NCBI GenBank assembly: GCA_015232455.1
Contig: JADFZQ010000003.1
Span: forward strand, 124,001 to 188,000
Length of the DNA: 64,000 bases
Reading direction: 5' to 3'
DNA from: Desulfamplus sp.
GTDB lineage: Bacteria > Desulfobacterota > Desulfobacteria > Desulfobacterales > Desulfobacteraceae
The translations under genes were made by a program, and so were the position numbers. The notes beneath the pieces were generated by a model. That model saw only the letters and a list, made by a program, of their open reading frames with translations. It had not been told where the DNA came from and did not search any database. Below, piece after piece: positions 53,032 through 63,470 of the stretch; within the stretch, counting starts at the first letter, position 1; each line of letters starts with the position of its first letter.

Positions 53032-53133
53032 GAATCTTCTGAATCACTGATTAACCTGATTGCACGGATTCCACTGATTTTTTAATCCGTGAAATCTCGT
53101 AATCCGTGCCAATCCGTGATTCTGACAAAACTT
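53032..53133. repeat. Repeat C, copy 1
   Basis: GAATCACTGATTAACCTGATT, ACGGATTCCACTGATTTTTTAATCCGTGAAATC, TAATCCGTGCCAATCCGTGATTCTGAC in order (written as pieces). The same order occurs at 55672-55779 and 61136-61233. Internal GGATT/AATCC parts are inverted. It lies between the ATPase-nuclease and VWA-FHA genes. Confidence 0.8.
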
Positions 53134-53148
53134 GACAACTATTTTCAA

Positions 53149-54897
53149 TTAAGATTTATACGACACTCTCAATTCAGTCCTGCCGACCAGAATCAAATCC
53201 CTGCTGTGAAGGCGATACATACCAGAAAACGGCACCCCATTAACCATAGTGCCGTTGGTTGAATTCAAATCCTGCAGATAGATGCTGCCCTCTCTTTGAA
53301 CAAGCTGGCAGTGACGCCCTGAAATCTCTTCATCATCTGTAATTGCAATATCACAAACCTTTGACCTGCCTATAACCAGAGTATTTGCAAGGTTATGAGA
53401 GTATGATTTTGTCTTTGCACTGCCAACCACAGTAAGTTTTATTGGTCTTGATTGTGAAGAATTATCAGATTCTGCTAAAGTGGCTGAATCTGAATCAAAA
53501 GCAGGTGAATCAGTTCCATGTCCTACTTGTTTCTTTGAAGCTGTGATGGCTTCATCAAGGTTTGAAAAGGCAGGTTGTCCCATTGTTGAATGAGGCGGAT
53601 GCGGTGCTTCTGTCTGCTCAGATGTTAGCTCTGATATTACTTGTGAAGATGCTCTTTTTTTTCGGGTAGATGCTATAATTATCAACACAAGCAATAGACC
53701 GCCTGCCCCTGCCCACCCGGCTAAAGGAATTTTCTGCCACCACTTTGGCTGAGGAGTTGCAGCTTGTGAGGCTTGAGGTTGAACTGTGCCGGTCTGTCCT
53801 GATTCTTGCTGAGATGCTGGTGGTTGTCCTGATTCTGGTTGAGATGCGGCTGGCTGCCCTGATTCTGGCTGTGCAGTTCCAGATTGGGGAGGTGCTGCAT
53901 TCTGAGTTACAGGAACATCTGGCAAAAGCCTTATACTCTGCCCGTCAGTTATGGTTCTTGTGCCTGCCTTGATGCTCATCTGAAGCCTATGAACAGCACC
54001 GTCAGCACGGCAATTCTTGCAATCAAGTTTTGCACTCCAGACCTCAGCAACGCTTTGTCTTACCTTTTTATAAATTTCAGATAAAGAGATATTACCAGCA
54101 TTAAAATAAAGTCCGCCTGATGTTCTGGCAAATTCACCCAAACTTTTTAAATACAGCTCTTTTTCATCATTAATAGGAGGCTTTGCAAAACCAATTGCAT
54201 AAATCGGCACTGGGTCTTCTTTTAACTGGTTCAGAACTTCTGCTTTAGTCATGCCTCCTGCAAAATCATCTTGACCGTCAGACAGGGTTATTATTACACG
54301 GCGTCCGGGCAGATCAGCATCTTTACGCCTGCCAAGTTCTATTGCTTTGGAAATTCCTAAATGAAGCTGGGTGTTCATATCTGTAAGGGTAAGCTCTTTT
54401 ATGGCTTTTTTTAAAATATCTTTATCTGCTGTAAAATCCTGCACTGTACGGACAGCAGTGCCAAAAGTCATTAGTAAAGCTCTATCTTTATCTGTCATTG
54501 CATCTACCCAGTCAGTAATGGCTTTTTTAATCTGATTAAACTGGGAAGTTGTAAGAGATTTAGATACATCAACAAGAAAAAGATAAGCAGCTCCCTCTTG
54601 AACATCATTAAACTTGCTGGCAGAAGTTACAGGTAATGAATCAGAGTCAATAAAGGCTGATAAGGTTATTCCGTCAATATTTTCAATTGATTTACCGTTC
54701 TCATCATTTAGATGGAGATAAGCTGTTATCTCTGGAAGATGCTGAAATATCTGGCTTACCCTAAATTCAGTTATTTCTGGTGAAGAAACTGCTTCTGATG
54801 CAGATACTTGAAAATCATCTGTAATAAAATTTATAACAATAGAAGCGGTCAGAAATATTATCCAAAAACGTTTTTTCAAATCCATTTTCAAGTCCAT
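53149..54897 (-). CDS. VWA-domain protein with transmembrane segment and C-terminal FHA domain
   Basis: 582 residues. Signal/anchor ~10-32; VWA domain (~90-290) with an intact MIDAS: FLVDVSKSLTT (DxSxS), MTFGTAV and LSDGQDD. A Gln/Pro/Ser-rich repeat region (ESGQPPASQ-type, ~345-385) precedes a transmembrane helix (~392-415). The FHA domain (~490-580) has VIGRSKVCDI, EISGRHC and STNGTMVNG. The VWA part is extracytoplasmic and the FHA cytoplasmic. The start overlaps the FHA gene upstream by 10 bp, with GGGAG before it, implying coupling. VWA/kinase/phosphatase sets resemble TerY-P-type triads. Confidence 0.88.
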   Translation of the reverse strand: MDLKMDLKKRFWIIFLTASIVINFITDDFQVSASEAVSSPEITEFRVSQIFQHLPEITAYLHLNDENGKSIENIDGITLSAFIDSDSLPVTSASKFNDVQEGAAYLFLVDVSKSLTTSQFNQIKKAITDWVDAMTDKDRALLMTFGTAVRTVQDFTADKDILKKAIKELTLTDMNTQLHLGISKAIELGRRKDADLPGRRVIITLSDGQDDFAGGMTKAEVLNQLKEDPVPIYAIGFAKPPINDEKELYLKSLGEFARTSGGLYFNAGNISLSEIYKKVRQSVAEVWSAKLDCKNCRADGAVHRLQMSIKAGTRTITDGQSIRLLPDVPVTQNAAPPQSGTAQPESGQPAASQPESGQPPASQQESGQTGTVQPQASQAATPQPKWWQKIPLAGWAGAGGLLLVLIIIASTRKKRASSQVISELTSEQTEAPHPPHSTMGQPAFSNLDEAITASKKQVGHGTDSPAFDSDSATLAESDNSSQSRPIKLTVVGSAKTKSYSHNLANTLVIGRSKVCDIAITDDEEISGRHCQLVQREGSIYLQDLNSTNGTMVNGVPFSGMYRLHSRDLILVGRTELRVSYKS

Positions 54898-55511
54898 TGA
54901 AATTGCTCCCCGCAGAATGGAATAAACATAAGTTTAGTCTGCCCAAGTTCAATTACATCATAGGGTTTAAGAACAGTCGGCACATCAACATCGTCATCAT
55001 TAAGATAGACAAGCCCTCTGCTATCTCCCGGGTGGAGTTTAAAAGAGCGGTTTTTAGGGTTGTAACTTACTGATGCGTGGTTCTCCCTTGAAACTGATTC
55101 GTCATTTTGAATACAGATGTTCATTGATTGAGACCTGCCTATAAAATTCTTTTCTGACCGTATTTGATAATCTCTGCCTCTGTCAGGACCATCAATACAG
55201 ACAAGCCAGCCAACCACAGGATCGATTCCTGTTTTTTTGCGGAAAATTCCAACTGTGCAGCCCTCTTCAGAAGTTGCTTTGCCTGCTGCCTGTCCTGCTC
55301 TTATGGTTTCAGCATGATCATCATCACGTTTGTTGTCATTGCGTCTGGGGGCTGTAGCTCCGGTTAATGGAGAGGGAGATGGAGATGGATGTGCATTGTC
55401 CCGCCTTGGCATGGTGCTTCCAAGATCAAGTGAGCCTACTCCGCAAGATGGGCATGAAGTGTGTTTTGTTGAATCATAATAATGTCCTTGTTCGCATCTT
55501 TTCATTGTCAT
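54888..55511 (-). CDS. FHA-domain protein with N-terminal zinc ribbon
   Basis: 207 residues. RCEQGHYYDSTKHTSCPSCG is a zinc ribbon (Cys at ~5, 18, 21 plus His); a Ser/Pro/Arg linker follows; the FHA domain (~105-200) has FIGRSQSMNI, ESVSRENHAS and DSRGLVYLNDDDV. The FHA recognises phosphothreonine on partner proteins. The start at 55511 has AGGAG, and the stop overlaps the VWA-FHA start. Probably an adaptor between the kinases and the VWA protein. Confidence 0.88.
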   Translation of the reverse strand: MTMKRCEQGHYYDSTKHTSCPSCGVGSLDLGSTMPRRDNAHPSPSPSPLTGATAPRRNDNKRDDDHAETIRAGQAAGKATSEEGCTVGIFRKKTGIDPVVGWLVCIDGPDRGRDYQIRSEKNFIGRSQSMNICIQNDESVSRENHASVSYNPKNRSFKLHPGDSRGLVYLNDDDVDVPTVLKPYDVIELGQTKLMFIPFCGEQFQWT

Positions 55512-55851
55512 AGTTTTCTTCTCCTTTTTTTGATTATCTTAATTGTGTGTTTACTATTTTTATATTTAATTGTCAGAATCAGGATACCCAAGATTAAAGG
55601 ATTGCAGGATTTGCTCTATCCTGCCTCATCCTTCTATCTCATAAATCCTGATTCAAAATGCTTTTATTATCAGAATCACTTATTAACCTGATTACACGAA
55701 TTCCACTGATTTTTTTATCCGTGAAATCGCACCTGCCTGCCGGCAGGCAGATAATCCGTGCCAATACGTGATTCTGACAACCATTTTCCCGATAGAGGCT
55801 TCGGCTTTGCTGTTTCGTCTCCTCTTGCCTGAATACCTGCTTGAGCCTGCC
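55512..55851. other. 340-bp intergenic region made of repeats
   Basis: Contains a degraded CAGAATCAGGAT/ATCCTGATTC stretch (55574-55660), repeat C copy 2 (55672-55779) with an inserted CCTGCCTGCCGGCAGGCAGG palindrome, and the trailer of the kinase-FGE gene that resembles the trailer of its paralogue at 61340-61370. No coding frame with a ribosome site is visible. Confidence 0.6.
55672..55779. repeat. Repeat C, copy 2, with an inserted palindrome
   Basis: Same blocks as at 53032-53133 (ATTAACCTGATTACACG, ATTCCACTGATTTTTT, ATCCGTGCCAATACGTGATT). Between the two ATCCGTG blocks a perfect palindrome CCTGCCTGCCGGCAGGCAG (55733-55752) has been added, absent from the other copies. Confidence 0.75.
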
Positions 55852-58038
55852 TTACTGCTGACCTGCGGGCAAAACGAGCCGGAACCCGACAGCAACATTA
55901 CGATAAGACTGGTTATATATTTCGCGGGATGCAGCTCGACAGCCACTGGCACTAATGTTCCATCCACCGCCACGAATAATTCTACAACAAGATGAATCTT
56001 CTACTCCAACATCAGTTAGTCCACCATCCCAATCAGAACACCATTCAGAAACATTTCCGTGCATATCATAAAGTCCCCATTTATTAGATGAAAAACTACC
56101 TACAGGTAATGTAGTTTTCTTATAGTTTCCCTTACTGCAACCATCTAAAGGATAATTACTACCATCATAATTTGCTTCATCTGTAGAAAGACACTTACCC
56201 GTATTAAATGGTGTAGTTGTTCCAGCCCTGCAAGCATACTCCCATTCTGCTTCTGTCGGAAGATGATATAATTTGTTATCTTTTTGATTAAGCCATTCTA
56301 AAAATTTTTGTATATCATTCCATGATATACATGTTACTGGATGACTATTAGTTTGTGAAAAACCAACATATAACCAATCACCAGGTTTTGTTATAATACC
56401 TTCACCTGACTCATCCCATTCTTGCACACCACCACCAGTCTCAGCTTCGGTTTTGTAATGGGTTTCAGCCACAAATGACTGCCAATGACCTCTTGTCACT
56501 TCAGTAGTCTGCATATAAAAACCTTTGGTCAGCTTTACTCTGTGCCGGCTTTCGTCATCACTTCTGTCAGGCTCATCTGCAGGGCTGCCCATCATAAACT
56601 CTCCGGGTGGTATATAGGCAAACTGCATATTGGGTAAAGAACCATCAATGATATCTCCTGCCTGCGGTTCACGCTTAGTAATAACAGGCGGAGAAGGTTC
56701 TGGTGCAGGCTCAGGTTGTTTGGCAGGTTTTAATTGCTCCACATTTGATGACACAGGCTCAGTTGACACGGAAGATTGATAACTCTGCTTTTTTCCTCCC
56801 ATAGAATACGCAATAAAAATCCCTGCTATTACAACAAGCCCAATAACAACCCACTTTAACACTCCGCTTTTCTGTTGAGGCTGCTGTGTAGGCAATGGAG
56901 GTGGTGGTTCTGACCTCGATGATTGGGAAATCGGCGGTATTGGCTGTGGAGTTGGACGATATGGCGGTTCAGGTGTTTGAAATTCCGGTTCAGGCTGTAA
57001 CGGTGGTGGTGATTGAAAATTAGGTGGCGGCGGAGTTGATTGAAAATTTGGTGCTGGTTCAGCCGATGATGCTTCAGAGAGATTCAACAGTATATCCTGA
57101 AACTGACGAACCGATTGGGGACGCTCTGCCGAGTTGACCGAAAGTGCCTGCATAACCGCATTCTGAAATCCCAATGAGACATTGGCAAATCTGTCAGGTG
57201 GAATAAGGTCGTCATCTTGAATACGATCCATAGCTGCAGGTGGAACTTTTCCTGTTACCATGCGGTAAAGGGTTGCACCGCAGGCATAAATGTCTGTCCA
57301 TGAACCCTGTCTGCCTTTGCTGTTATATTGTTCATACGGGGCATAACCGGCTGTCATCATAGCAGTAAGGCTTCTGCTTCTCTCTCCCATTACAAATCTT
57401 GCTGCCCCGAAATCAAGCAGTATCGGAAGGCCGCCCTGTGTCAGATAGATGTTCTGAGGCTTTATATCGCGGTGCAAAAATCCCTTTTCATGAACTTCAC
57501 GCAGACCATCAAGAATCGGCATCATTATATCAATTGCTAATTTTTCAGCTATTCTGCCTCCTTTCTCAATCAGATAGTGTTCCAATGACATGCCGTCATA
57601 GTAATCCATCACAAGGTAGGCTGTGTTGTTTGCCTCAAAAAAGGTTACTACACGCACCACATTTGCATGTTTGAATTTAGCAAGCGTTCTTGCTTCCATC
57701 AAAAATGCTTCAAGCCCAAATCTAAAAAGTTCCTCGTCTTCCTTTGAATGGGCAACTACTGTGGTTTGGTCTGTATCTCGCCCTGCGTTGTCTCTTGGCA
57801 GATACTCTTTAATTGCAACCATTGTCTCAAGACGCGTATCCCACCCAAGATAGGTGATGCCAAATCCTCCGGGTTTTCCAAGCACCTTGCCAACAACATA
57901 CTGGTCAGCAAGCAATGTTCTATGTTTTAGCACAAGCGGGCTTCTTCGCTCGCCTTCATCATAACCGCATAAGGGGCAGACTGGAGTTGAGCTTTTCTTG
58001 TCCGTCATGCAGCCCATGCACATGGTTTCAGGGTTCAC
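55852..58038 (-). CDS. Membrane Ser/Thr kinase with C-terminal FGE (C-type-lectin-fold) sensor domain
   Basis: 728 residues from a GTG with GGAGG upstream. Zinc ribbon (Cys7, 10, 21, 24); kinase ~45-305 with VAIK (Lys77), FLHRDIKPQNIYL (Asp191), DFGAARF (Asp209); Pro-rich linker; transmembrane helix WVVIGLVVIAGIFIAYSMG (~400-418); then a formylglycine-enzyme-like (SUMF1) domain ~465-728 with GEFMMGSP, YHLPTEAEWEYACRAG and WGLYDMHGNVSEWCSDW. The FGE part lies outside the membrane and lacks the usual Cys pair, so is likely a ligand-binding lectin-type fold rather than an enzyme. Its last ~35 residues look diversified (see 55870-55972). Confidence 0.9.
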   Translation of the reverse strand: MNPETMCMGCMTDKKSSTPVCPLCGYDEGERRSPLVLKHRTLLADQYVVGKVLGKPGGFGITYLGWDTRLETMVAIKEYLPRDNAGRDTDQTTVVAHSKEDEELFRFGLEAFLMEARTLAKFKHANVVRVVTFFEANNTAYLVMDYYDGMSLEHYLIEKGGRIAEKLAIDIMMPILDGLREVHEKGFLHRDIKPQNIYLTQGGLPILLDFGAARFVMGERSRSLTAMMTAGYAPYEQYNSKGRQGSWTDIYACGATLYRMVTGKVPPAAMDRIQDDDLIPPDRFANVSLGFQNAVMQALSVNSAERPQSVRQFQDILLNLSEASSAEPAPNFQSTPPPPNFQSPPPLQPEPEFQTPEPPYRPTPQPIPPISQSSRSEPPPPLPTQQPQQKSGVLKWVVIGLVVIAGIFIAYSMGGKKQSYQSSVSTEPVSSNVEQLKPAKQPEPAPEPSPPVITKREPQAGDIIDGSLPNMQFAYIPPGEFMMGSPADEPDRSDDESRHRVKLTKGFYMQTTEVTRGHWQSFVAETHYKTEAETGGGVQEWDESGEGIITKPGDWLYVGFSQTNSHPVTCISWNDIQKFLEWLNQKDNKLYHLPTEAEWEYACRAGTTTPFNTGKCLSTDEANYDGSNYPLDGCSKGNYKKTTLPVGSFSSNKWGLYDMHGNVSEWCSDWDGGLTDVGVEDSSCCRIIRGGGWNISASGCRAASREIYNQSYRNVAVGFRLVLPAGQQ
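55870..55972 (-). other. Candidate retroelement variable region in the kinase-FGE gene (copy 1)
   Basis: Encodes RGGGWNISASGCRAASREIY, then NQSYRNVAVGFRLV. In many FGE-type targets the equivalent template reads N at most of these variable positions. Here such positions are ATT, AGT, GGC, TCC, TAT, TAT, GTT and GCT, mostly NNT or NNC, as if AAT/AAC codons were altered only at the first two bases. The conserved end GFRLV and the shared GGTCAGCAGTAAGG trailer follow. Confidence 0.5.
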
Positions 58039-58076
58039 TGTTTATCCTCCATAATTTGAGCCTTTAATTTTTTTAT

Positions 58077-58168
58077 CGCCCAGAGCTAAAGCTCAGGGCT
58101 AAATTTTATCCAGCCCTCTTAAGAGGGCTTTTTTTATGAGTTAGCCGAGGGCTTTAGCCCAACGGCTG
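58077..58168. repeat. Repeat D, copy 1
   Basis: CCAGAGCTAAAGCTCAGGGC, CAGCCCTCTTAAGAGGGC followed by a T-run, then GTTAGCCGAGGGCTTTAGCCC. Same arrangement at 61248-61340. The centre is a perfect 16-bp+ palindrome with a T-run on the plus strand. It lies between the coiled-coil gene and the kinase-FGE gene. Confidence 0.8.
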
Positions 58169-59025: not shown

Positions 59026-59817
59026 TTAATTCCCTCCGGTGTATAAGCGGTTTATAAGATTCCTCAGAGTATAATAACCTGCATTGTTGACACTCTCCTC
59101 TTCGATCCGCTGGACAATATGGAGCAGCAATACTAAAATTGCACTTAATATAAGGGCAATCAAGGTGGTGTTGAATGCCACAGATAAAGATTTTGTTAAT
59201 TCTTGCAACTTCGGGTCTTGGGGGTTAACAATTGCCAGAGTATAGGAGATACCGATAACCGTGCCGATAAATCCGAACGTTGGAATAACCCAGACAATGT
59301 AGCGAATCATGCTGTAACGCAAATCCACCCGATGGGCAATCAGCTCAAGGCTGGAGTTTAAAACAGAAACGGCCTGATCAATGGAGCGGGAAGATTGAAA
59401 TTGAAGAATACAGAGATCAATCAAAGAGGGAAGAAAACCATGCTCCCCGTCAAATTGGGCTGCAACCTGCCTTCGTATTGGTCCAAGATCGCTAAACTGC
59501 AAGACAGTTTCATCGTCTTCTGGCAGATAACCTTTGCTGACAAAAGCCTTTTCACGAACAGCCACCCGCCATCTGACATAAAGCTCACCAAGACCGATAA
59601 AGAACTGTATGTGCATTATATTCTGAATAGTTATGGGGAAAACAGGCTTGAAAAGTTCAGATTGGCTGTCAAGAAGTATTATACCAGCCATAGTATCTCC
59701 TATAAGATTCCACAAAACCCCCACAAAAACGCAACCTGCCATAATTGATATTCCAAGAACTGTCAACCTGCCCGGTAGTTCCCAAAGCGTTTTATTACTG
59801 CTGTCATTATTTGTCAT
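59026..59817 (-). CDS. MotA/TolQ/ExbB-family proton-channel protein
   Basis: 263 residues from the ATG at 59817, which overlaps the FHA stop (ATGA) with AGGAG upstream; a start six codons earlier is less likely. Hydrophobic segments lie near ~12-40, ~60-78, ~175-200 and ~215-240. The family signature is VIPTFGFIGTVIGISYTLAI and LSVAFNTTLIALILSAILVLL, then HIVQRIEEE. It would form the ion channel with the TolR/MotB-like protein encoded next. Coupling to an FHA gene suggests control by phosphorylation. Confidence 0.88.
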   Translation of the reverse strand: MTNNDSSNKTLWELPGRLTVLGISIMAGCVFVGVLWNLIGDTMAGIILLDSQSELFKPVFPITIQNIMHIQFFIGLGELYVRWRVAVREKAFVSKGYLPEDDETVLQFSDLGPIRRQVAAQFDGEHGFLPSLIDLCILQFQSSRSIDQAVSVLNSSLELIAHRVDLRYSMIRYIVWVIPTFGFIGTVIGISYTLAIVNPQDPKLQELTKSLSVAFNTTLIALILSAILVLLLHIVQRIEEESVNNAGYYTLRNLINRLYTGGN

Positions 59818-60248
59818 TGTCCACACTCCTGACATTTTGCATTTTTAGGTTTAACTGCCCCGCATCCACACCTTATTAAACGTTCTCCTTTAACCCATGG
59901 CTTTTGTGGTTGAGGAGGAGGTTCTGAAGATGGTTTCGGCTGTGCTGCCTGTGTGTTAAATGATTTGAATTTTAGATGTATTCCCTCTAAAATTTCCTTT
60001 ACAGGCATGGTTACATCTCCAAACCTCACAACGTCAGTGGGCGAGATAAATTCCTGTTTAACTGATTGGGATTTTCCAGCGTTGATCAATAGTGTTCCGT
60101 GAGTGCTGCGACAGTCGATTAAAAACAGCTTGCCGTCAGGCATGAAAATAAGCTCGGCATGTTTTCGGCTTACAGACTCATCAGCAAGCACAATGTCGCA
60201 CTCCCGAGAGCGTCCAATGGTGAATTTACGTTCTTTTTGGTTCTGCAT
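59814..60248 (-). CDS. FHA-domain protein with C-terminal zinc ribbon
   Basis: 144 residues. The FHA domain (1-95) has FTIGRSRECDIVL, ESVSRKHAEL and CRSTHGTLLI, all key phosphothreonine-binding residues. A Pro-rich linker leads to a zinc ribbon, RCGCGAVKPKNAKCQECG (~125-143). ATGA overlap with the MotA/TolQ-like gene indicates that the two are made together; it may tether phosphorylated partners to the channel. Confidence 0.88.
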   Translation of the reverse strand: MQNQKERKFTIGRSRECDIVLADESVSRKHAELIFMPDGKLFLIDCRSTHGTLLINAGKSQSVKQEFISPTDVVRFGDVTMPVKEILEGIHLKFKSFNTQAAQPKPSSEPPPQPQKPWVKGERLIRCGCGAVKPKNAKCQECGQ

Positions 60249-60349: not shown

Positions 60350-61081
60350 TTACTTTTCTGCAAATAGTGCTATTGCTGTATAATTATCGTATTTTCCTTC
60401 TGCCCGTGAGATAATTCTTGCAGCCATATCTGCAAGCCACTTTTCAGGAGTATCTGAGCGGGCAAGGTCTGCCTCCATTTCAGTTTCAGTTACATATTCC
60501 CAAAATCCGTCCGTGCAGAGCAGAAATGCGTCCCCAGCCTGAACTTGATGACTCTCTTTTTCTACAGCAGGTCTTAAATTACCTTCATGCCCAAGCGTTC
60601 TGAGCAGACGGTTTCGGTCTTCATGCTGCCTGATTTCATCATAGCTTATATCTCCTGCATCAAACATTGCCTGAGGCACGCTGTGATCTTTAGTCTGAAA
60701 GATTATACGTCCGCCGCTGAAGTGATATAACCGTGTATCACCAACATGCGACCATATTGCGCCTTCATGGTCAGCAATAAGAATAACCACTGTGGTGCGC
60801 ATGGAAAAGAGCTTTGGCTCTTCCTCCTGCTGCCTGATAATTTCGTCCTGAGCAGACTTTATATACCTGACCATTGCCTCTGCACTCATTTCAGGCTCTT
60901 TTGCAAACTCATCAAGTATGGTTTGTGCTGCGATACGAGATGCAACCTCTCCACCGCGGTGTCCTCCCAATCCATCTGCCGCTACCCAGCAGGTAAATGG
61001 AGACTTTTCCACAAAAGCACAATAATCCTGATTTTCACTTCGACCGCCGACATTTGAAAGTGTGGCTGTAATATATTTCAT
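60350..61081 (-). CDS. PP2C-type protein phosphatase (soluble)
   Basis: 243 residues, the minimal PP2C size. NVGGRSENQDYCAF, WVAADGLGGHRGGEVASRIA (metal site), MRTTVVILIA, WSHVGDTRLYHF, LLCTDGFWEYVTE and KYDNYTAIALF are present. No membrane segment. A partner of the island kinases, similar to the phosphatases of type VI secretion and TerY-P clusters. The gene lies between kinase-FGE and FHA genes in the same direction. Confidence 0.93.
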   Translation of the reverse strand: MKYITATLSNVGGRSENQDYCAFVEKSPFTCWVAADGLGGHRGGEVASRIAAQTILDEFAKEPEMSAEAMVRYIKSAQDEIIRQQEEEPKLFSMRTTVVILIADHEGAIWSHVGDTRLYHFSGGRIIFQTKDHSVPQAMFDAGDISYDEIRQHEDRNRLLRTLGHEGNLRPAVEKESHQVQAGDAFLLCTDGFWEYVTETEMEADLARSDTPEKWLADMAARIISRAEGKYDNYTAIALFAEK

Positions 61082-61135: not shown

Positions 61136-61233
61136 TTCAAATAATCTGAATCACTGATTAATCTGATTACACGAATTCCACTGATTTTTTTTAATCCGTG
61201 AAATCCCCTAATCCGTGCCAATCAGTGATTCTT
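61136..61233. repeat. Repeat C, copy 3
   Basis: CTGAATCACTGATTAATCTG, ATTACACGAATTCCACTG, AATCCGTGAAATCC, CTAATCCGTGCCAATCAG, TGATTCTTA. Matches copies at 53032 and 55672. A fragment (TTTTCTGAATCATTGATTTA) also lies at 60332-60352. Confidence 0.8.
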
Positions 61234-61247
61234 AACACGCCACATTA

Positions 61248-61340
61248 TCGCCCCAGAGCTAAAGCTCAGGGCTAACTTTTACCCAAGCCCGCTTAAGCGG
61301 GCTTCTTTTATGCGTTAGCCGAGGGCTTTAGCCCCACGGC
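61248..61340. repeat. Repeat D, copy 2
   Basis: CCCCAGAGCTAAAGCTCAGG, AAGCCCGCTTAAGCGGGCTT, GTTAGCCGAGGGCTTTAGCC. Compensating differences in the central palindrome (CCCGC/GCGGG here, CCCTC/GAGGG in copy 1) suggest the stem is maintained. It directly precedes the trailer of the kinase-FGE gene. Confidence 0.8.
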
Positions 61341-61367
61341 TTCGGCTTGCCTGTCTACTTTAGCCCC

Positions 61368-63470
61368 TTACTGCTGACCATGGGAAAAGACAAGCCGAAA
61401 ACCTAAGTCGTCGGCGCGGTTAGACGGGCTGCTGCCGACGCGATCCGCCGAACGGCAGTTCCACTCGCCGCCGTTCCAGCGCCCGCCGCGAATAACACGG
61501 TACGACCCCGAAGAAGCACCAACAGGATCAGTAACAGAACCAGAAGGATAATCACTAAGCCAATCCTCACACCACTCCCATACATTGCCGTGCATGTCAT
61601 GCAATCCCCAAGCATTAGGAGCAAAACTTCCAACTTCAATTGTCTTTTCTCTATATTTACCTTTACTACAACCAGTTAATGGATAATTACCGTTATAATT
61701 TGCTTTGTCTGTTGAAAGACAACTGCCTGTATTAAACGGAGTTGTTGTCCCTGCCCTTGCTGCGTATTCCCACTCTGCCTCGGTAGGAAGACGATACTCC
61801 CTGCCATCTCCATTCTGATTGAGTTTCTTTATAAACTCTCTGGCATCTTCCCACGAAATATTCTCCACTGGGCAGTTATCTCCACAATCCTTGAAATACA
61901 ATTCTGGAGGAGGATAACCCATCACAGCCTTCCACTGACCCTGTGTAACCTCTGTTGTCTGCATATAAAACCCTTTGGTCAGTGTTACTCTGTGCCGGGT
62001 TTCGTCATTCTCACGGTCAGGCTCGCTTGAGGGGCTGCCCATCATAAACTCTCCGGGTGGTATGTAAGCAAACTGCATATTAGGCAAAGAACCATCAATG
62101 AGGTCTCCTGCCTGCGGTTCTCGCTGAGTAACAACCGGAGGAGAAGGTTCTGGTGCAGGTGTAGGCTCAGGTTGTTTGGCAGGTTTTGATTGCTCCACAG
62201 TTGATGACACAGGCTCAGTTGACACGGAAGATTGATAGCTCTGCTTTTTTCCTCCCATAGAATACGCAATAAAAATCCCTGCTACTACAACAAGCCCAAT
62301 AACAACCCACTTGAGCATTGAACTTTTTTGTTGAGGCGGCTGTGTAGGAAATGGAAGTGGTGGTACTGACGTTGATGATTGGGAAATCGGCGGTATCGGC
62401 TGTGGAGTTGGACGATATGGCGGTTCAGGTGTTTGAAATTCCGGTTCAGGCTGTAACGGTGGTGGTGGCGATTGAAAATTAGGTGGCGGTTGAGACGATG
62501 ACGATTCAGAAAGATTCAACAGCATATCTTGAAACTGACGCACTGATTGGGGACGCTCTGAAGGCTCTGTGGATAATGCCTGAAGCACTGCATTGGTAAA
62601 TCCAAAGGATACACTGACTATTCTATCAGGTGGAATAAGATCATCGTCATCTTTCCGCTCAATAGCTTCAGGTGGAGTTTTTCCTGTTACCATTCTATAA
62701 AGCGTTGCTGCACAAGCATAAATGTCTGTCCAAGTTCCCTGTCTGCCCTTGCGGTGATACTGCTCATACGGTGCATATCCGGGGGTCAGAACCACTGATA
62801 AACTCCTGCTTCTCTCTCCCATTGCAAATCTTGCTGCCCCAAAATCAAGCAGTATCGGAAGACCTCCCTGTGTCAGATAGATGTTCTGAGGTTTTATATC
62901 CCTGTGCAAAAATCCCTTTTCATGCACTTCCCGCAATCCGTCTAAAATCGGCATCATTATATCAACAGCAAGTTTTTCAGGTATTCTGCCGCCTTTTTCA
63001 ACCAGATAGCTTTCCAATGACATGCCACTATAATAATTCATCACAAGATAGGCTGTATTGTTTGCCTCAAAAAAAGTCCGAACACTTACCACGCTTGCAT
63101 GGTTAAATTTTGCAAGCGTTCTTGCTTCCATTAAAAAGGCTTCAAGACCATACTTAAATATCTCTCCATCTTCGTTTGAATGGACAACTACTGTTGTTTG
63201 GTCTGTATCACGTCCTGCATTATCTCTTGGCAGATACTCCTTGATTGCCACCATTGTCTCAAGGCGGGTATCCCAACCAAGATAGGTGATGCCGAATCCT
63301 CCGGGCTTTCCAAGCACTTTGCCAACAACATATTGATCTGCTAAAAGAGTTCTGTGTTTTAAAATCAGCGGGCTTCTTCGCTCGCTTTCATCATAACCGC
63401 ATATTGGGCATACAGGACTTGAGGTTTTCTTGTCCGCCATGCAGCCCATGCACATATTTTCTGGGTTCAC
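61368..63470 (-). CDS. Membrane Ser/Thr kinase with C-terminal FGE sensor domain (second copy)
   Basis: 700 residues from a GTG with GGAGG upstream. Same architecture as the paralogue at 55852: zinc ribbon Cys7, 10, 21, 24; kinase with Lys77, Asp191 and Asp209; Pro-rich linker; transmembrane helix WVVIGLVVVAGIFIAYSMG (~393-411); FGE domain with GEFMMGSP, YRLPTEAEWEYAARAG and WGLHDMHGNVWEWCEDW. The FGE middle differs from the paralogue (GQWKAVMGYPPPELYFKDCG). The last ~35 residues appear diversified (61389-61490). It is the first gene of the minus-strand island and probably the outer-face sensor of the system. Confidence 0.9.
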   Translation of the reverse strand: MNPENMCMGCMADKKTSSPVCPICGYDESERRSPLILKHRTLLADQYVVGKVLGKPGGFGITYLGWDTRLETMVAIKEYLPRDNAGRDTDQTTVVVHSNEDGEIFKYGLEAFLMEARTLAKFNHASVVSVRTFFEANNTAYLVMNYYSGMSLESYLVEKGGRIPEKLAVDIMMPILDGLREVHEKGFLHRDIKPQNIYLTQGGLPILLDFGAARFAMGERSRSLSVVLTPGYAPYEQYHRKGRQGTWTDIYACAATLYRMVTGKTPPEAIERKDDDDLIPPDRIVSVSFGFTNAVLQALSTEPSERPQSVRQFQDMLLNLSESSSSQPPPNFQSPPPPLQPEPEFQTPEPPYRPTPQPIPPISQSSTSVPPLPFPTQPPQQKSSMLKWVVIGLVVVAGIFIAYSMGGKKQSYQSSVSTEPVSSTVEQSKPAKQPEPTPAPEPSPPVVTQREPQAGDLIDGSLPNMQFAYIPPGEFMMGSPSSEPDRENDETRHRVTLTKGFYMQTTEVTQGQWKAVMGYPPPELYFKDCGDNCPVENISWEDAREFIKKLNQNGDGREYRLPTEAEWEYAARAGTTTPFNTGSCLSTDKANYNGNYPLTGCSKGKYREKTIEVGSFAPNAWGLHDMHGNVWEWCEDWLSDYPSGSVTDPVGASSGSYRVIRGGRWNGGEWNCRSADRVGSSPSNRADDLGFRLVFSHGQQ
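61389..61490 (-). other. Candidate retroelement variable region in the kinase-FGE gene (copy 2)
   Basis: Encodes RGGRWNGGEWNCRSADRVGS, then SPSNRADDLGFRLV. The codons at expected template-Asn positions are GGC, GGC, GAT, GTC, GGC, AGC, AGC, GCC, GAC and GAC: third bases C/T kept, first two changed. By my count bases 61407-61490 are about 75% GC, against 30-48% around. This fits adenine-directed mutagenesis of an AAC-rich template. Ends in GFRLV and the GGTCAGCAGTAAGG trailer shared with the other copy. Confidence 0.6.

Follow-up and report, generated by a model that had tools for sequence, protein, structure and literature searches.

A diversity-generating retroelement-type variable region, probably orphaned, at the end of a membrane kinase gene in Desulfamplus

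The stretch of DNA analyzed here (the window) comprises 64,000 nucleotides of a Desulfamplus sp. contig (JADFZQ010000003.1, assembly GCA_015232455.1). The genome holding the window, termed G000, was compared with nine other genomes of the genus, G001-G009, with one genome per species; contigs and loci are denoted below by C and L numbers. The gene under study (61368..63470, minus strand; termed the VR1 gene) encodes a 700-aa protein with an N-terminal kinase domain (Pfam Pkinase, E 9.1e-33) and a C-terminal FGE/C-type-lectin domain (FGE-sulfatase, E 9.9e-47). A single hydrophobic segment, MLKWVVIGLVVVAGIFIAYSMGG, was recognized by eye in the translation between these domains, in keeping with a membrane Ser/Thr kinase. 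Its sensor part had been called extracellular from the sequence, but a periplasmic location is more likely given the Gram-negative lineage. The cluster continues on the same strand with genes for a PP2C-type protein phosphatase (60350..61081, PP2C_2 E 4.4e-17), an FHA-domain protein (59814..60248, FHA E 2e-16), a MotA/TolQ/ExbB-type membrane protein (59026..59835, MotA_ExbB E 5.6e-13), and a second kinase-FGE gene (55852..58038), the latter identified by Pfam and sequence comparisons.

The end of the VR1 gene, running from the motif RGGRW to GFRL, is a candidate variable region (VR) of the diversity-generating retroelement (DGR) type, termed VR1 (61389..61490, minus strand), which was delineated from its GC content, its NNC codons, the codon positions that differ from relatives, and the alignment of its end with that of the variable protein TvpA. 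VR1 has a GC content of 69.6%, compared to 46.4% for the VR1 gene and 37.1% for the window. Only 9 of the 63,898 stretches of 102 bases are as GC-rich or richer, and the richest one (71.6%) begins at 61409, within VR1. The enrichment noted in the sequence-only reading is therefore real, although the figure of ~75% given there was too high, and the codons that it listed (GGC, GAT, GTC, AGC, GCC, and GAC) are all present.

Thirteen codons of VR1 match variable or Asn columns of related templates, these columns having been picked partly post hoc, by family. All 13 are NNY and 12 are NNC, compared to 46.8% and 12.4% of codons, respectively, in the gene upstream of VR1 (binomial p of 5e-5 and 2e-10). 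At the 11 AA-starting codons of one relative's template, VR1 has NNY in 10/11 and NNC in 9/11 cases. Comparison with two homologous kinase-FGE genes of Desulfamplus sp. nS315bin44 (G005) bore out the earlier claim that the third bases fit AAC/AAT while the first two vary. Versus K2 (C127:10232-12097), the variable codons differ 10, 7, and 2 times at positions 1, 2, and 3, whereas the counts are 49/38/88 in the 176 codons of the FGE part preceding the VR and 49/23/124 in the 278 codons of the kinase part (Fisher p of 6e-4 against the FGE part and 5e-5 against kinase and FGE parts combined). Versus the VR of K3, which is proven by adenine mismatches (see below), the counts are 10/8/2 of 13. A control FGE pair without DGR features (G000 C66 and G005 C117) gave 0/1/3 at the same columns, and two more distant control pairs gave 1/2/9 and 3/3/10. 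As judged from these alignments, the change of positions 1 and 2 with position 3 kept, the reverse of the remainder of the gene, is the signature of DGR mutagenesis, and VR1 shows it at NNY codons corresponding to AAY in a template, as a DGR variable region does.

The best PDB sequence match of the VR1 gene product is Treponema denticola TvpA (variable protein 1, 2y3c; E 1e-29), which ranks above PvdO and the true FGEs, and the C-terminal ends of the two proteins align. TvpA differs in that its chain of 294 residues had no reported kinase match. VR1 lies at the C-terminus of this C-type-lectin (FGE/TvpA) fold, the location characteristic of a DGR variable region. An AF2 model (pLDDT 64.1, with residues 192-222 below 50) also matches FGE folds and TvpA, its VR residues being too uncertain to map. 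Related loci from several phyla have a common backbone with differing residues, and an Asn-rich, template-like copy adjoins a reverse transcriptase (RT) in three of them (L014, L022, and L057). Among 22 of 78 related loci, picked by their VR-like ends, an RT was matched in 18 of the 22 genomes, with E below 1e-60 in 9; the weaker matches may represent other RT classes.

DGRs were found within the genus itself. Contig C114 of G005 (assembly 89% complete) carries a DGR-type RT and a template together with an HRDC-domain gene and an FGE gene that ends in a VR. Comparison of this template with three VRs over a 99-base core showed mismatches at adenines only: 20/20 for the VR on C114, 19/19 for that on C120, and 18/18 for C127:20300 (p of 2e-14 to 1e-12 for the adenine bias). 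When the C120 comparison is extended to 108 bases, 3 non-adenine mismatches appear, all in the last 5 bases and outside the core. The C127:20300 VR is the end of K3, a kinase-FGE gene with a frame break between the FGE start and end (K3 corresponds to L260 18634-19998 plus L261 1-428). K3 is located ~8 kb from K2 in a kinase/PP2C/FHA/MotA-type cluster that resembles, by eye, the cluster of the window. Since the C114 template matches VRs on both C127 and C120, and K3 is a kinase-FGE gene, kinases of this family are among the trans targets of DGRs in the genus. D. magnetovallimortis (G001) likewise has an RT and a template, and in its VRs adenines account for 15/15, 12/12, and 17/22 of the mismatches. 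The codon signature, the TvpA match, and the adenine-only mismatches in a relative together give good support to the original identification of 61389-61490 as a DGR-type variable region ending the FGE domain of the kinase.

Both relatives also contain VR-like ends that the template of their own genome does not match (G005 C127:11969, C119, C117, and C140; G001 C1, C22, and C9), with at least 16 non-adenine mismatches each. These seven ends indicate that orphan-like ends are common. Two of them in G005, C140:17652-17771 and C127:11969-12088, have most of their backbone in common (over 20 backbone codons, positions 1/2/3 differ 3/1/1 times), and no template matching either was found in that 89%-complete assembly, which suggests a second, unseen DGR in G005.

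The observation that the window has no RT extends to the searches made in the G000 assembly, which is 98.47% complete in 82 contigs. Pfam RVT_1 had 0 matches in G000, no homolog of the G005 RT was found there, and the eight-sequence RT profile A1 returned 0 matches at either E<=0.001 or E<=10. Profile A1 matches 46 of 78 genomes and also catches other RT classes; across the 10 genus genomes, it matched strongly (E<=1e-66) in G001, G002, G005, and G008, weakly in G003 and G007, and not in G000, G004, G006, or G009. G004 (96% complete) resembles G000 in having a VR and no RT match. In G002, the RT open frame on C260 (L159 119-1804) starts with a stretch that is rich in Asn and resembles a template, though of another type.

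The search for a template gave a similar picture. A VR/TR profile that recovers the templates of G005 and G001 had six matches in G000, each inside a long ORF with an FGE domain, and the combination of a DNA search with this profile yielded only FGE genes and short chance matches as VR1 template candidates in G000. The best G000 blastn match to a relative's template, C60:1118 (E 0.65), was rejected as it maps to the first part of an unrelated ORF; six other such matches have E of 2.25 to 7.84. VR1 had no match in phage and plasmid collections. The known templates of the genus were also rejected as the source of VR1: that of G005 mismatches VR1 at 35 of 99 bases, including 17 non-adenine ones, and that of G001 has 28 non-adenine mismatches. 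Other targets, in G005 and G001, have a near-identical template that mismatches them only at adenines; for VR1, no such template was found in G000, and the DGR-class RT expected of a complete DGR was likewise not found in that genome. A genome search for a DGR RT and template had been proposed in the sequence-only reading as its own check, with a missing RT named as refuting it; when run on G000, the search found neither.

The second kinase-FGE gene of the window provides a view of how such gene ends evolve. Its kinase part is 94.5% identical to that of K3, which makes the two genes orthologs, and yet its end is without the codon signature, whereas K3 ends in an adenine-proven DGR variable region. 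In the 13 variable codons, the second gene differs from VR1 by 8/10/10 at positions 1/2/3 and from the K3 VR by 8/12/11, with 5/4/13 differences from the latter in 20 backbone codons. The signature was either lost from the second gene or never present there, which indicates that kinase-FGE genes acquire, lose, or exchange their ends. The VR1 gene has no clear one-to-one ortholog in G005, as its kinase part is nearly equally identical to those of K1, K2, and K3 (80.3, 80.0, and 81.1%). K2 was considered as a syntenic ortholog and rejected, its 80.0% identity not being above that of K1 or K3 and the gene order being different.

Two other genes of G000 have VR-like ends. The closest G000 match to VR1 is VR2 (C33:87149-87268; 70% identity). 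The backbones of VR1 and VR2 differ at 14 bases, and at 9 of these neither known template has an adenine, making it unlikely that one current template rewrites both. VR3 on C67 has the motif with a weak codon signature (NNY 9/11, NNC 4/11), and its status as a variable region is uncertain.

As the searches yielded no template that differs from VR1 only at adenines, the DGR origin of VR1 is argued from the codon signature and the family. The failure to find an RT or a template in G000, together with the improbability of one current template for VR1 and VR2, leads us to read VR1 as orphaned and probably frozen. Our favored explanation, which we regard as probable, is that VR1 is a true DGR variable region, now most likely frozen, whose cassette is missing from G000. 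In an ancestor, reverse transcription of an adenine-rich template RNA by a DGR would have yielded cDNA carrying random bases wherever the template had adenine, and this cDNA would have replaced the end of the VR1 gene in place. About 13 codons of the AAC/AAT type, located where the lectin-like domain is presumed to bind its ligand, would thereby have changed in their first and second bases. Altered binding by the sensor could in turn have altered the timing of kinase switching, with the PP2C and FHA neighbors potentially involved. The cassette would subsequently have been lost rather than missed by the assembly, although it is possible that it lies unassembled.

The original proposal went further and had the sensor undergoing hypermutation by a DGR located elsewhere. 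A cassette and matching template in an unassembled part or an unbinned element would then still be rewriting VR1 in trans. Trans targets are real in the genus, as demonstrated by the match of the G005 C114 template to VRs on C120 and C127, and for the backbone-related G005 VRs C127:11969 and C140:17652 no matching template was found in that 89%-complete assembly; in Thiohalocapsa, loci that have no RT or TR of their own are described as still diversified in the excerpted text of PMC10907252. However, G000 is 98.47% complete, the searches made in it found neither RT nor template, and the 9 of 14 non-adenine differences between VR1 and VR2 make a single template now rewriting both unlikely. Ongoing hypermutation was thus not supported, and we consider an active remote DGR unlikely.

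Since the ends of these kinase genes change hands, VR1 may instead come from recombination, having been imported ready-made from another DGR target gene, in which case the kinase gene was never rewritten in place. The strongly differing ends of the second gene and K3, despite nearly identical kinase parts, demonstrate that kinase-FGE ends are unstable, and in G004 a VR end sits in a 55-aa frame followed by an IS200-type transposase. On the other hand, the VR1 backbone differs from K2 at 8/20 third positions, about as the kinase part does (124/278), consistent with shared ancestry of the entire gene; no recombination donor was found in G000 either, the next match being VR2 at 70% identity. Import therefore appears quite improbable. 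We give very little credence to an origin without any DGR, in which the binding face of an FGE-type domain evolves fast under ordinary positive selection within a GC-rich segment of C-ending codons. The local GC content is indeed high and G000 has FGE homologs without DGR features, but ordinary selection does not spare the third base in codons that are otherwise changing. The variable codons of VR1 have undergone heavy change at positions 1 and 2, yet their third positions are better conserved than those of other codons, a pattern not shown by FGE pairs without DGR features.

Kinase-lectin proteins varied by DGRs are already known from the literature, as are degenerate DGR loci fed in trans. 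The cyanobacterial Ser/Thr kinase-CLec proteins, for which ligand sensing or autoinhibition has been proposed (PMC7517822, in excerpt), share with the VR1 gene product a Hanks-type kinase and a C-terminal C-type-lectin domain with a VR, and have remote VRs and paralogs. In contrast, the VR1 host belongs to the Desulfobacteraceae, with RT and template unfound in G000. Thiohalocapsa PB-PSB1, as described in the excerpts of PMC10907252, is similar in its FGE/CLec targets, in having kinase among the target domains, and in its degenerate loci without RT or TR; in that case, however, the genome also contains complete loci, and metagenomes were used to measure variation. Another parallel is the G005 C114 DGR of the same genus, with FGE targets that include a kinase-FGE gene of a homologous cluster; there, however, RT and template are present, and that template did not make VR1. 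Our literature search found no published report joining a DGR with Desulfamplus. The present case adds Desulfamplus-type bacteria to the hosts of DGR-diversified kinase receptors, and illustrates how variable regions can be recognized when template and RT are out of sight. Orphaned variable regions would record past receptor selection, and the relatives offer intact systems for testing the trans targeting of kinases.

Copy alignment and DNA folding revealed a repeat, termed R1, downstream of these genes. R1 is a ~90-bp imperfect inverted repeat (a MITE-like hairpin), of which 17 copies were aligned. One copy is located ~133 bp 3' of the VR1 gene (61142..61234, plus strand), another ~73 bp past the second kinase-FGE gene (55667..55778, plus strand), and a third ~25 bp past the ORF 53152-54933 (minus strand) of the same cluster, which has no FGE domain call (53035..53126, plus strand). 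The fold of the first copy has a z of -4.08, and four copies span z of -2.3 to -6.2. R1 follows the VR2 and VR3 genes of G000 at ~20 bp, and in G005 it follows VRb, K2, and K3 (at about 12-21 bp) as well as the non-FGE kinase K1. The strongest match keeps one orientation relative to the gene for VR1-VR3, the second kinase-FGE gene, VRb, and K1-K3. R1 is not limited to VR genes, as it is also found 3' of ORF 53152-54933 and of small genes near VR2 and VRb. In 425 kb of G000, the only copies of R1 found were 3 in the window cluster, 4 at the VR2 locus, and 2 at the VR3 locus, plus a single partial match in L170. None of 13 control stretches (260 kb) had a copy, while one G000 stretch did among six further ones (four of G000, two of G005). 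Loci with R1 beyond the window include L150, L152, L155, L260, L261, L262, and L310, and most copies share one orientation relative to the gene; R1 is absent from the G005 C114 locus.

The position of R1 resembles that of the target hairpin of BPP-1 (PMC3240598, in excerpt), and R1 is also similar to the MITE-like arrays that took the place of DGR parts in Thiohalocapsa according to the excerpts of PMC10907252. We offer as a doubtful conjecture that the DGRs of the genus are visiting mutators, mobile cassettes that would come, rewrite several kinase or receptor ends in trans, and be lost, leaving frozen variants; the portable R1 hairpin past the targets might mark, or even serve as, a target-site cruciform enabling remote rewriting.

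A palindromic repeat, R2, lies between VR1 and R1 (61244..61341, plus strand), with another copy in the window at 58074-58167. On G004 C51 (L267 2113-3103), the VR end in its 55-aa open frame is followed by R2 repeats and then by the IS200-type Y1 transposase. In L152 (9300-12144, G000 C33) and L155 (7760-11413, G005 C120), R1 copies alternate with small genes 3' of the VR genes in a cassette-array-like arrangement, and several of these small genes encode toxin-antitoxin domains (PIN, ParE-like, PemK/MazF-like, and HTH).
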